Shown: piece by piece, positions 107 through 26,970 of the stretch | Layout: every line of letters starts with the position of its first letter | Numbering within the stretch: position 1 is the stretch's first letter | Source of the DNA: a virus | Strand: one strand, 5' to 3' | Virus record (IMG/VR): IMGVR_UViG_3300042922_000402 | Location: 1 to 34,014 of that record | DNA: 34,014 bases | Made by a program: the position numbers and the translations under genes | Notes under the pieces: model-generated | Told to the model about the DNA's origin: nothing | Seen by the model: only the letters and a program-made list of their open reading frames with translations | Databases searched by the model: none

Positions 107-383
107 GTGGGGTAGTTAAGAGGAAGCTTCCAACGCACTCCCAAATATGTTAACGTGGTGGCGGAAGATAGACGCTAGGATCAGGGGTAGAAACTCGTTC
201 GAACCGAGTTTTCCAAGATAAGTGCCTGAACTGCTTATCATGCATAGGTGAGAGTCCTATGCCCACGTTTAACAAGGTGACAAGCGCGTACCGGGGGACT
301 GGGCATGATGGCGTCATGTAGCGCATCACATAAGAAGAAGCACTAGCCGCTATCGAGAGCAGCCGGTGCTTCTTTTGTTTTAT
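107..383 (+). ncRNA. Structured leader RNA ahead of the late operon
   Basis: No convincing gene lies here, but the RNA can fold extensively. A 10-bp closing stem with one bulge (149-158 with 263-273) encloses a 3-bp arm (161-163 with 171-173) and three perfect hairpins: 191-211 (7 bp, loop TTCGAAC), 217-239 (6 bp) and 242-262 (7 bp, loop TGAGAGT). A second domain pairs 277-287 with 321-329 and contains a hairpin at 304-318. The region ends in a strong terminator. It could be a short terminated late leader, like lambda 6S RNA or HK022 put RNA, or a free-standing phage RNA. I do not recognise a known family. Confidence 0.55.
335..383 (+). terminator. Rho-independent terminator of the leader RNA
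   Basis: A perfect 9-bp stem, AAGAAGCAC at 335-343 with GTGCTTCTT at 366-374, has further short pairing inside and is followed by a T-rich run (TTTTGTTTTAT). It would stop transcription from the upstream promoter before the first late gene, so full late expression would need read-through or antitermination. Confidence 0.75.
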
Positions 384-3117: not shown

Positions 3118-3345
3118 ATGGCCGTATATGAATTATCGTTTGGACGGGTTAAGCATTTTGTTTCGGCAGAGAGTGAACAAGACGCCTATCTGCAAGGGAC
3201 GGACCCGGAACAGTTCCCGGATATCAACTATTTACCTTTTGAAATCAGGGAGGTGATTGTACCGGGCCACACCATTACCGTCACACCTAACGAGCAGGAA
3301 ACTACAAAGAACAAGGGTGGACGTCCGAGGAAGGTAGAACCATGA
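3118..3345 (+). CDS. Small phage protein with AT-hook-like tail, hypothetical
   Basis: 75 residues behind a strong AGGAGG ribosome site. Residues 1-55 look like a small beta-rich domain. The C-terminus KNKGGRPRKVEP contains GGRPRK, which matches the core of an AT-hook and could bind AT-rich DNA in the minor groove. That is a motif reading only. The gene lies in the terminase-portal interval and overlaps the next start by four bases. No family name is offered. Confidence 0.6.
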   Translation: MAVYELSFGRVKHFVSAESEQDAYLQGTDPEQFPDINYLPFEIREVIVPGHTITVTPNEQETTKNKGGRPRKVEP

Positions 3346-3575
3346 GTTTTGATTATGACGTTAAGGGAAAGCGGAATCTTGACTCTGAAATGATGAGCAT
3401 TATTTCTGCGTACGTCAAGGGCAATGAATGCTTCCCGAAAAGAATAATCGTATCCAAGGAAAAGTTTTCCGAATTTAAAGAAGTATTCCCATCCATTTAT
3501 CCTATCGTTTTTGAATATGACAACATTACAATTGAATGCGACATTAACCAAACAGAAGATTATAAATTGTCCTAG
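3342..3575 (+). CDS. Hypothetical small phage protein
   Basis: 77 residues, acidic, with alternating charged and hydrophobic stretches and no membrane segment or cysteine pair. It begins in an ATGA overlap with the stop of the preceding gene and ends 15 bases before the portal start, so it is part of the same translationally coupled run. No motif or family is recognised. Confidence 0.55.
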   Translation: MSFDYDVKGKRNLDSEMMSIISAYVKGNECFPKRIIVSKEKFSEFKEVFPSIYPIVFEYDNITIECDINQTEDYKLS

Positions 3576-6501: not shown

Positions 6502-7683
6502 ATGGCATTTGATTTGACACAAGCCAATGCGGTACTGAAAGAGGACTATCTGGGTCCGGTACGGGATCAACTTAACAATGATAACCCGATCATCAAAAAG
6601 CTGGCAGCTAAGAAACAAGAGGCCACAGGTAAACGGTTTTTCGTGCCCCTCCACTATGGCCGCAACAATGGTATCGGATACCGCGCAGAAGGCGCCGCTC
6701 TTCCAACGGCAGGGAACCAAAAATACAAGGAATCCACCGGGAATGTGAAGTACCTGTACGGTGTCATCGAAATCACTGGTCCTACCATCAAGGCCATGCG
6801 GAACGACAAGGGTGCATTTATCCGGGCCGTAGACAGCGAAATGAAAGGGCTGCTGCGTGACTTGAAGGATCAACGGGCGCGGGCGTTGTTTGGAGATGGA
6901 ACGGGGAAACTGGCGAACTTTGCGGTTAATACGTCTGTAAATACGTTAACCGTGAGCAAAATTAAATATTTTCAAGTCGGCATGGCGATTGATATCGTAA
7001 ACAACTCCGGCACTGTTACTGTAACCGGCAGAACAATCACTAATATTGACGCGGCCAACTCCACCATTACCATCGGCGGTGCAGCTGTGACAACCGCAGC
7101 TACAGACTATGCTGTGGTAACAGGCGACCTGAACAACGAGGCTATGGGACTTGGTGGCATTATGAGCCAGTCCTTGTTACTGCAGGGCATTGACCCAACG
7201 ACTAATCCGTGGTGGAAGCCGAACCGGATCGCTAATGGCGGCACAAACCGGGCTATTAGTCTTGCTCTTATGCGCCAAGCCATGGACACATCCGAACTGC
7301 AAGGTGGTAAGGTAGACTTCCTGGCAACATCCTATGGAGTACGGGCGGCATACGAAGCATTGCTGCAAAACAATGTGCGTTATGTGAACGCCATGGAGTT
7401 GGAAGGAGGGAACAAAGTCCTGGAGTTCGACGGAAAGCCGCTGTATGTAGACAGGTATTTCGAATCCAATCGCATGGACTTCCTGGACTTGGATGAAATC
7501 GACCTTTACCAACTGTCTGATTTTGAATGGATGGAAGATGATAAGGGCGCTGCTCTGGCTCCTGTTCCTGGTTTTGACAAATACGCAGCTACCATGTTCT
7601 GCTATGAAACATTGGTCACGTATCGCCGGAACGCTCACACCGAACTGGCTGACCTGACCGAAGCCACGGGATACTTGGTCTAA
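6502..7683 (+). CDS. Major capsid protein (HK97 fold)
   Basis: 393 residues. The N-terminal part has an N-arm and an E-loop-like segment (KRFFVPLHYGRNNGIGYRAEG), followed by a spine-helix-like region (DLKDQRARALFGDG). Residues about 150-215 are a beta-rich, T/V/N-rich insertion (NTLTVSKIKYFQVG and following), typical of capsid proteins with a small added surface domain. The C-terminal half returns to the A-domain (SYGVRAAYEALLQNN, GKPLYVDRYF). It follows the scaffold and is the only gene with a strong terminator directly behind it, consistent with high separate expression. Confidence 0.9.
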   Translation: MAFDLTQANAVLKEDYLGPVRDQLNNDNPIIKKLAAKKQEATGKRFFVPLHYGRNNGIGYRAEGAALPTAGNQKYKESTGNVKYLYGVIEITGPTIKAMRNDKGAFIRAVDSEMKGLLRDLKDQRARALFGDGTGKLANFAVNTSVNTLTVSKIKYFQVGMAIDIVNNSGTVTVTGRTITNIDAANSTITIGGAAVTTAATDYAVVTGDLNNEAMGLGGIMSQSLLLQGIDPTTNPWWKPNRIANGGTNRAISLALMRQAMDTSELQGGKVDFLATSYGVRAAYEALLQNNVRYVNAMELEGGNKVLEFDGKPLYVDRYFESNRMDFLDLDEIDLYQLSDFEWMEDDKGAALAPVPGFDKYAATMFCYETLVTYRRNAHTELADLTEATGYLV

Positions 7684-25609: not shown

Positions 25610-26482
25610 TTACTTTAGTTTTTGGACTTTCACTTTCTTTTCTATACCATCTACTACCATTATGTAATTTGATCCATCTTTATAAATTGTTACTTTTGGA
25701 TTGTACTTATAAGAATAGTGATAAGTGTAGTCAATTTGTTCCCATATCTGACCATTTTGAAGTTTGAATAATTTACCATTATCAAAACCTTCAAAATCTC
25801 CGTCAATCTTTGATTCAACAATATTAGATTCGCTTACTGACGATGTGTTTATCTGAGACAGTCCGAATTGAATAGGATCTCTAAACCCATTTATTGGAGT
25901 CCATGTCCATGCTTTCTTGTAATAATCTTCTATCGAACTGTATTCCATTATTTTCTTGGCATACATTGTTGGGATGCTGAAAAATCCCATATATGAATTA
26001 CCATAATAAATATTAACAAACACTATTTCTGCATCTGTATCAACATGTAATTCACTAGCGCTAGCGATATTATTTAAATTCGATACAATATCATCACTAA
26101 TGACTGTGTCAACAGATATATATGGACCAAGATCAGTAACAATATATTTAACGTTAGAAGAGTTATATTTCTTAGAGTTTTCATTCTTTTTTGCCATTAA
26201 TTCTCGCAATGTAGAGTTGCTAAAATTTTTTGAGTAAATACTAGCTGTATAAGTATTATTATCCCAATAAACTGTTGAACCAAGGGATTCAGAAACATCC
26301 CTAATTGGAATTAGTGTTGTTCCGTCGTAAATTATGGCCGGAACTTCTCCATTAACTTCTTTACCATCGACGGTAATCTTTACTATTGGATTTCCTTTAT
26401 AATCCCCATTAATGCTTGAAGCGCTTACGGTTCCGGCTATCAAAGTAGAGAGGAGGAGTACCGCGGCTATTTTCTTTTTCAT
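25610..26482 (-). CDS. Secreted protein with copper-amine-oxidase-type stalk domain
   Basis: 290 residues. A signal peptide covers about residues 1-22 (KKK, a hydrophobic core, then SASS). Residues about 31-87 (VKITVDGKEVNGEVPAIIYD, TLIPIRDVSESLGSTVYWD) match the Cu-amine-oxidase N-terminal/stalk domain, a cell-surface module found in many Paenibacillus proteins. The remaining 200 residues are Y/N/S-rich and unassigned. The gene is markedly AT-rich. It lies between the repressor and a second XRE gene on the same strand, so it is probably made in lysogens. GGTGA precedes the ATG. Function unknown; the stalk domain alone is not an oxidase. Confidence 0.85.
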   Translation of the reverse strand: MKKKIAAVLLLSTLIAGTVSASSINGDYKGNPIVKITVDGKEVNGEVPAIIYDGTTLIPIRDVSESLGSTVYWDNNTYTASIYSKNFSNSTLRELMAKKNENSKKYNSSNVKYIVTDLGPYISVDTVISDDIVSNLNNIASASELHVDTDAEIVFVNIYYGNSYMGFFSIPTMYAKKIMEYSSIEDYYKKAWTWTPINGFRDPIQFGLSQINTSSVSESNIVESKIDGDFEGFDNGKLFKLQNGQIWEQIDYTYHYSYKYNPKVTIYKDGSNYIMVVDGIEKKVKVQKLK

Positions 26483-26610
26483 AGTTTCACCTATACATAG
26501 TTCCAGATCGGTTCCGGGATTTTACTACAACAGAGGGACGGTGTTAGTTAATGGAAGACGCAGAGGGAAAAAGAGTTGATGACCGACAGACAAACGAAAC
26601 GGAAAACAAG

Positions 26611-26970
26611 TTACTTTCCATCCTTACCTCGTGCGATCCGGAGCAAATCGAAAGCGTCAGAGAGCATCTTCTGGAACAAGGGATCTTGGGTGGATAACCC
26701 AAGTTTTTTTGCTTCTTCTTCAATTAACCTTATTGTTGTAACGCTGTCATTCTTCACTTCCTGGGAATCCTTGTGCTCCTCACCAAGAAGAAAACTTACT
26801 TCCACTTCCAGCGCTTCGCATATATCCTTCAATTCATCTGATCGAACTGGCCTTTGTCCCAATTCAATTCGGTTGAATACACTGGGGCTTATTCCAACCT
26901 TCTGAGCAAGTTTCTTTTGTGGCCACCCCTTCCTTTCCCTGAGCCTCCTTATTTTCTCGCCTATTTCCAA
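26611..26970 (-). CDS. CI-like phage repressor (XRE family)
   Basis: 119 residues. An XRE helix-turn-helix fills residues about 7-62 (IRRLRERKGWPQKKLAQKVG, ISPSVFNRIELGQRPVRSDE, LCEALEVEVSFLLG-like end). The C-terminal 50 residues are helical, with no LexA-type protease domain, so inactivation is likely through the antirepressor. The start is TTG at 26970 after GAGGAGG. It is divergent from the Cro-like gene across a control region with four 17-bp operators. The first of these lies over its own promoter, so it can control its own level. Confidence 0.88.
   Translation of the reverse strand: MEIGEKIRRLRERKGWPQKKLAQKVGISPSVFNRIELGQRPVRSDELKDICEALEVEVSFLLGEEHKDSQEVKNDSVTTIRLIEEEAKKLGLSTQDPLFQKMLSDAFDLLRIARGKDGK

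Follow-up and report, generated by a model that had tools for sequence, protein, structure and literature searches.

A tRNA-Leu-like RNA skeleton in phages with a hypervariable insert where the anticodon and variable arms would be

Results

Layout and fold of the module

We analysed the 34,014-base virus record IMGVR_UViG_3300042922_000402 (hereafter the window, that is, the whole stretch of DNA at its full length). The module at 149-273 is almost certainly a skeleton of the tRNA-Leu type in which the anticodon and variable arms have been replaced by an insert. We delimit the whole module as 149-273, with the skeleton proper at 152-269. The acceptor stem is formed by AACGTGG (152-158) and CCACGTT (263-269), as indicated by the fold, by covariation among the homologs and by the 7-bp limit of their pairing, and no CCA follows the 3' strand, as had already been noticed. 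A preliminary description, made from the window alone, had drawn a closing stem of 10 bp here; such a stem is present, but it consists of the 7-bp acceptor and three further pairs (149-151 with 271-273) past a bulged T. The tRNA-Leu-like 5' and D-arm sequence that it had pointed out, GTGGCGGAAGATAGACGCTAG, was found in the region of 158-178, and comparison with the homologs placed the D-arm at 161-175, with a stem of 3 bp (161-163 with 173-175) and a loop, GAAGATAGA, which has no GG, as described (class B, see below). Note that the letters of the D-stem were set by our search pattern, and their invariance is no evidence.

The T-arm, of the 7-bp class, lies at 242-262 (GCATAGG, loop TGAGAGT, CCTATGC), where the homologs also have their T-arms. 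The preliminary description had seen this hairpin of 7 bp and 7 nt correctly but had taken it for an additional one stacked on the acceptor, and had assigned the T-arm to the hairpin at 191-211. The latter, with its 7-bp stem and its loop TTCGAAC, is real in the fold, but no homolog was seen to keep it, which ruled it out as the T-arm. It occupies the place of an anticodon arm, and its 7-nt loop would read U33-CGA-A37. It is part of the hypervariable insert (176-241), which is unrelated between members of the family and takes the place of both the anticodon arm and the variable arm. The insert also contains stem S2 (217-223 with 233-239), which was predicted by the fold and ends 2 nt 5' of the T-arm, a register common in the homologs, and helix S1 (TCAGG, 181-185, with CCTGA, 225-229), which crosses S2 and would form a pseudoknot (P = 0.035 for the window unit).

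The predicted folding energy of 148-273 was -39.2 kcal/mol, compared with -30.3 +/- 3.4 kcal/mol for 200 shuffled sequences (z = -2.6; 1 of the 200 was as good). By itself this energy is only suggestive; the case for the module rests on the homologs. ARAGORN detected neither a tRNA nor a tmRNA at the module, in agreement with the reported absence of an anticodon arm. Rfam gave no match of any kind there (tRNA and tmRNA included), and blastn with the 560-nt leader against phages gave no match. Rfam scans of the window and of further loci likewise led us to reject a known Rfam family as the identity of the module. Thus, the tRNA and covariance scans that had been suggested were blank at the module with ARAGORN and Rfam, whereas a covariance model of the family described below does match it.

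A family of homologous units

Among relatives of the window's terminase small subunit (TerS), the leaders 5' of terS hold varied structured RNAs, including real tRNAs. A search of viral DNA with a pattern made of the tRNA-like 5' part and the 3' closing strand detected 56 stretches, which correspond to 50 distinct units. These have in common the 5' side GTGGTGGCGGAA(TAGGT)AGACGC and, mostly, the 3' side ATGCAAGGTGCAAATCCTTGCCCAC, with an unrelated stretch between the two; laid on tRNA, their order is acceptor, U8-G9, D-arm, insert, T-arm and acceptor. The leader pattern in genome contigs gave 116 stretches, most of them by chance, among which approximately eight loci looked genuine by profile score; by their titles, the genome-contig loci with such leaders are from Paenibacillus. 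Loci that were new from a looser module pattern were left out of the counts, except L220, which was found again by the stricter pattern.

Thirty-eight of the 50 units were aligned (alignment A1), leaving out L305 and L298 (no clean T-arm), L314, L325, L324 and L330 (near-duplicates), L220 (cut) and L292, L301, L321, L333 and L338 (ordinary T-loop). Since the pattern fixed GTGGTGGCGGAA, AGACGC and GCCCAC, the invariance seen in A1 is by construction for the D-stem, for the inner four pairs of the acceptor and for some of the T-stem. Beyond the four fixed pairs, the next three acceptor positions are paired in 38, 38 and 31 of the 38 units, with numerous substitutions on either strand, and an eighth pair occurs in only 17, so that pairing stops after 7 bp. 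The covariation score was 0.289, compared with 0.097 for shuffled and 0.04-0.11 for slid controls. The T-stem also shows compensatory changes across the homologs, and matches to model R1 from outside its training set have altogether different acceptors that are still fully paired at 7 bp (for example ATACTCG/CGAGTAT, GTCACTG/CAGTGAC and GCGATAG/CTATCGC). The preliminary description would have been contradicted by homologs that conserve the sequence and lose the pairing; this comparison gave the opposite outcome, namely that pairing is kept while the sequence changes, and its suggestion of a derived tRNA or tRNA mimic was right.

With the covariance model of the family, the SPP1 unit, which was outside the training set, scored 79 bits. 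The window scored 70 bits, but it belongs to the training set and this match is by construction. True tRNA-Leu genes mostly scored about 22-37 bits (nine genomes), and three were at 40.6-44.9 bits.

The elbow and the coupled D-arm and T-arm classes

For the tests of the insert stem we used 80 non-redundant units out of 92, obtained from 99 matches after removal of seven (the true tRNA-Leu genes L379, L380 and L384, and L383, L369, L298 and L381, which were misparsed or tRNA-like). Seven of the 80 failed the parser and were cut by hand; the remaining 73 were used for the counts of classes and of positions 14-15 and 48, from which the hand-cut units are absent.

Three combinations of D-loop and T-arm account for 67 of these 73 units, with six exceptions. 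A D-loop with GG goes together with a 6-bp T-stem and a loop that is mostly TGCAAAT in 46 units, a D-loop without GG with a 7-bp T-stem and a loop that is often TGARAGT in 14 (the window included), and a D-loop with GG with an ordinary 5-bp TTCGANT arm in seven. The window's class B thus has a GG-less D-loop and a T-loop different from that of class A. In class A the elbow pair 19-56, between a D-loop base and base 3 of the T-loop, is G-C in 50, G-U in three, A-U in two and U-A in one of 56 matches, a count that includes relatives. All 73 units have T at position 48 and AA at positions 14-15 (the latter partly fixed by the pattern). Together, these observations show an elbow constructed like that of tRNA, and a D-arm and T-arm that evolve together. 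As judged from covariation, the parts retained from tRNA-Leu are the acceptor stem, the T-arm and the D/T elbow.

Could the module simply be a functionless, decaying pseudogene of tRNA-Leu? Its closest relative is tRNA-Leu, the anticodon is absent and CCA is hardly ever present. However, compensatory changes in the acceptor, T-stem and elbow, together with coupled D/T classes, run across many phages and are not a product of decay. They contradict the pseudogene reading, which we rejected as having practically no probability. Nor does the module have all features of a functional tRNA. The 7-bp acceptor (seventh pair in 31 of 38) and, for class A, the 19-56 pair were found, whereas a decodable anticodon arm or recognition by a tRNA finder was not (when the viral and genome loci were scanned, ARAGORN detected nothing at their modules apart from three ordinary tRNA-Leu genes). 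CCA is encoded in only three of 85 matches, which is a weak criterion, since many bacterial tRNA genes are also without it.

The hypervariable insert

The insert ranges from 32 to 152 nt, with a median of 67 nt. A stem (-8 kcal/mol or better) whose 3' strand ends exactly 2 nt 5' of the T-arm was found in 52 of the 80 non-redundant units, compared with 8.7 expected. The variable stem of L379, a true tRNA-Leu, stops at the equivalent place, 2 nt before the T-arm. The segment between the D-arm and this stem pairs with the loop of the stem beyond shuffled controls (Fisher, P = 5e-6; 53 units, 10 of them at P <= 0.05), and also when the loop was shuffled instead (P = 3e-5); the crossing helix and the stem together make up an H-type pseudoknot. 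Both helices change with compensation between L313 or L309 and L364 (CGAGTG/CACTCG to CGGGTG/CACCCG). In a test without this anchoring, crossing helices were not preferred to nested ones (mean z, -1.14 versus -1.01; 47 units), and the predicted pseudoknot is therefore supported in aggregate, not proven unit by unit.

Two extreme forms were also seen. In Enterococcus phage FL2A (L394, about 1975-2035) a minimal form of approximately 60 nt, with an acceptor, a tiny D hairpin and a T-arm and with the insert almost gone, lies between the ArpU gene and the terminase genes. In L368 (1501-1698) the insert seems to hold two further tRNA-like units, as if such elements insert into each other.

Context in the late leader

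The window starts with the last 17 codons and the stop codon of a late-activator-like gene (1-54; C-terminus NLDGKVNFERIFDRISV), as recognised from its counterpart in the sister locus L052. The full-length counterpart (170 aa) matches the transcriptional regulators of phrog_36/phrog_248, while RinA, ArpU and sigma models stayed below cut-off. From its sequence, 56-100 is probably the late promoter region, with three TTACCG repeats (56-84) and TATATT (95-100); a simple sigma-70 promoter scan of the leader gave no promoter. The three repeats are fully conserved in L052 and are candidate activator sites. The module is followed by a second structured element (274-330), which has constant flanks (GGTGACAAGC ... 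GCATCACAT) and an interior different from that of L052, and by a terminator-like hairpin and then TTTTGTTTT (333-381), which is our own reading of the fold and was not listed by a simple scan of the + strand; the fold of 274-385 has a z of -3.7. The order on the + strand of the window is thus activator gene, TTACCG repeats, module, second hairpin, terminator-like hairpin, small ORFs and terS (PF03592, 870-1370).

In many temperate relatives the module likewise stands after a late-activator gene (ArpU, RinA or sigma type) and before the terminase. The upstream proteins matched transcription-regulation PHROGs in nine of 20 cases and in four of four in a further set, and six of 20 downstream proteins matched TerS or HNH families; terminase or HNH genes are also found 3' of the module in several annotated phages. 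In the window the module is placed in the late leader, but it is an accessory unit of many phages and more than a part of this one leader.

This position could suggest a cis element of the late mRNA, either a compact fold at the 5' end that would protect against 5'-3' decay or a site where RNase P or RNase Z would cut and separate transcripts. Indeed, a compact, sometimes knotted fold would stop an exonuclease, and the hosts are mainly Bacillota, which use RNase J. We nevertheless consider such an element rather unlikely, since a terminator-like hairpin stands between the module and the genes in the window, Paenibacillus phage Pd_22F has two opposite-strand genes after its module, large phages have the module among tRNA genes, and the variable insert would be left unexplained. 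Because the module precedes a terminator-like hairpin, as in the lambda late leader, it might also be a regulatory late leader, for example an antitermination or attenuation element for read-through into the late operon. The related leaders L014 and L037 keep the terminator without the module, however, and large phages also have it far from the terminase, which makes this reading very unlikely.

Other elements were observed in or near these leaders. At positions 388-436 of the window, 3' of the leader terminator, there is a conserved sequence of about 50 nt (GACCGAA...GGCCGTA). It recurs between genes in Paenibacillus phages and prophages as a dispersed repeat, with several copies on both strands in L162, L110 and L097. 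The genome locus L361 has an epsC/EAR antitermination element (RF01735, 968-1081) some 420 nt 5' of its module. Further leaders contain tRNA-like units with unusual anticodon regions: that of L004 (2455-2590) has an acceptor, a D-arm with GG, a T-arm and a large insert, and those of L035 (580-673) and L012 (2194-2271) have odd tRNAs according to ARAGORN.

Distribution and exchange among phages

The module was found in phages of Paenibacillus, Bacillus (SPP1), Listeria (P100 and A511), Enterococcus, Leuconostoc, Brochothrix, Lactobacillus and Weissella, as well as in prophages, and the hosts are mainly Bacillota. Annotated carriers detected by blast include SPP1, Bacillus phage Grass and its relatives, Listeria LP-101, Leuconostoc LN34, Enterococcus EFP01, Paenibacillus Pd_22F and Brochothrix BtpYZU01, in which the unit is mostly unannotated. 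There were 214 records in all, with Synechococcus and Mycobacterium among them as listed matches only. The P100 unit occurs in 46 Listeria records, A511 included. In Listeria phage CKA15, region 26,236-26,727 is reported to be among the most transcribed of the phage (PMC12282133). It does not correspond to the module, provided that CKA15 shares the arrangement of cka8, cka11 and cka14, whose modules are at 28.8-29.4 kb.

At E <= 1e-9, matches occurred in the family around G002 (Paenibacillaceae by the titles of its loci; 18 of 245 genomes), in its phylum (12 of 398, three of them ordinary tRNA-Leu according to ARAGORN) and in the Draconibacterium phylum (two of 198, both with ordinary T-loops). 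None was detected in 299 and 296 genomes of two further phyla, those to which a Rhodobacteraceae and a Thermoleophilia genome belong. These scans detect prophages only, with stricter filters in the large ones, and the group names are inferred.

The surroundings of the module vary between phages. In Herelleviridae (Listeria P100, Bacillus Grass and Schiekvirus) it stands among tRNA genes, several temperate phages have tRNA genes 3' of it, and in Pd_22F two opposite-strand genes separate it from the next gene on its own strand. In Schiekvirus L392 and L393 (1667-2014) a tmRNA gene (tag AKNEELLAVA) lies directly upstream, and the phage source of L306 has an Rfam skipping-rope RNA in its tRNA cluster (3280-3349). 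In record X89721 the SPP1 unit falls between genes 9 and 11, within the head operon; gp10 is described as unrelated to known proteins in PMC6316719. Directly 3' of the SPP1 module (L339, 3541-3590) we observed a second minimal tRNA-like hairpin pair (ACGGAC/GTCCGT; T-loop TTCAATT), the sequence of which appears as a Rho-independent terminator (6780-6824) in Table 2 of the same source.

In several unrelated phages the module is close to genes for the terminase or the head, which might suggest an RNA for packaging or assembly that works like phi29 pRNA. However, the module is accessory, close relatives being without it, and purified SPP1 gp1, gp2 and procapsids package DNA in vitro (PMC6316719), so that we regard such a role as highly improbable.

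The accessory nature is seen in closely related leaders. The window and its sister L052 are identical at 61-165 and from the acceptor 3' strand to about 297, whereas the interior differs in class and sequence, and leaders with the same 5' part hold the module, another RNA or none (L024, L044 and L045 versus L005, L037 and L014). The swapped interior and the variable equipment of the leaders show an accessory module that is exchanged as one unit.

Discussion

A possible role as a non-decoding decoy

We tentatively propose, at somewhat less than an even chance, that the module is a non-decoding tRNA mimic that works in trans, as a decoy engaging a tRNA-binding factor of the host; its structure is seen in the covariation, and its function is our inference. 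Its strict shape with free sequence, its exchange between phages and its occurrence in both leaders and tRNA clusters fit a trans mimic better than a cis element. The opposite-strand genes of Pd_22F, the SPP1 head operon and the tRNA-cluster sites likewise speak more for a trans-acting RNA than for the leader of a single gene. The interior replaced in sisters with identical flanks, together with the strict shape and free sequence, fits an accessory, diversifying trans-acting RNA. The RNA would be transcribed from a late promoter, or within the tRNA clusters of large phages, would probably be trimmed by host tRNA-processing enzymes, and may then occupy in trans a host factor that reads the tRNA elbow or acceptor. 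Candidates for this factor are a tRNA-directed defence toxin and an enzyme of tRNA maturation or quality control.

Such an RNA would be kept out of translation by the lack of an anticodon and by an acceptor/T helix of mostly 13-14 bp instead of 12 bp; a 13-bp helix is a mark of tRNA-Sec and disfavours EF-Tu. As bacterial LeuRS ignores the anticodon, charging of the module RNA with leucine is conceivable. Against the decoy proposal stand the late placement, while anti-defence functions are usually early, and the encoding of CCA in so few (3/85) of the matches.

A more far-reaching reading, which we regard as doubtful, is that these units form a widespread, unnamed class of phage RNA, a tRNA-Leu elbow scaffold with a diversifying pseudoknot for the anticodon arm. 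Its members would be fast-evolving decoys or antagonists of host tRNA-targeting immunity, possibly chargeable by LeuRS, that head the late transcript and are swapped as cassettes. A decoy role, if correct, would point to factors of the host by which tRNA is attacked or used at a late stage of infection.

Comparison with known RNAs

The module family is absent from Rfam 15, and no description of such an RNA was found in the PMC literature, a coverage with most subscription papers and preprints outside it. Among known RNAs, YrlA is a non-decoding tRNA mimic with an elbow. A tether or scaffold resembling Y RNA, in which one protein would bind the tRNA-like half and another the insert, would suit the elbow and the variable domain as a two-part adaptor, and bacterial Y RNAs contain a tRNA-like module (PMC12282133). 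Against this, TROVE/Ro60 genes were detected in none of 23 records (some of them fragments), while a control genome, Deinobacterium, matched. YrlA (RF02553) was over the cut-off in none of 17 records, with sub-threshold places away from the modules and no match up to E = 10 at the L303 module. We rejected an identity with Y RNA on both counts and consider a tether of this kind quite unlikely.

tmRNA (SsrA) also has a tRNA-like end without an anticodon, and pseudoknots. It was excluded, since ARAGORN and Rfam revealed no tag frame or tmRNA at the modules, and the tmRNA of L392 and L393 is a separate upstream gene. No Rfam match to phi29-type pRNA as a curated family was found at the module, a result whose weight depends on pRNA models being within Rfam.

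The closest known relative of the module is tRNA-Leu. The two share the 7-bp acceptor, U8, the D-arm G(C)GGAA..GGTAGACGC, A14-A15, U48, the 19-56 pair and the stem ending 2 nt before the T-arm. They differ in that the module has no anticodon arm, carries an insert of 32-152 nt, has a T-stem of mostly 6 or 7 bp, almost never encodes CCA and is missed by ARAGORN and the Rfam tRNA model. Other known systems resemble it by description only: the plant-virus tRNA-like structures as viral tRNA mimicry, phi29 pRNA as a phage structural RNA, and the lambda late-leader 6S RNA as a leader RNA between late promoter and terminator. A strongly covarying structured RNA has stood unannotated in well-studied phages (SPP1, P100/A511, Bacillus Nitunavirus and Enterococcus Schiekvirus), and, while tRNA mimicry itself is known, the module extends it to a large group of tailed phages.
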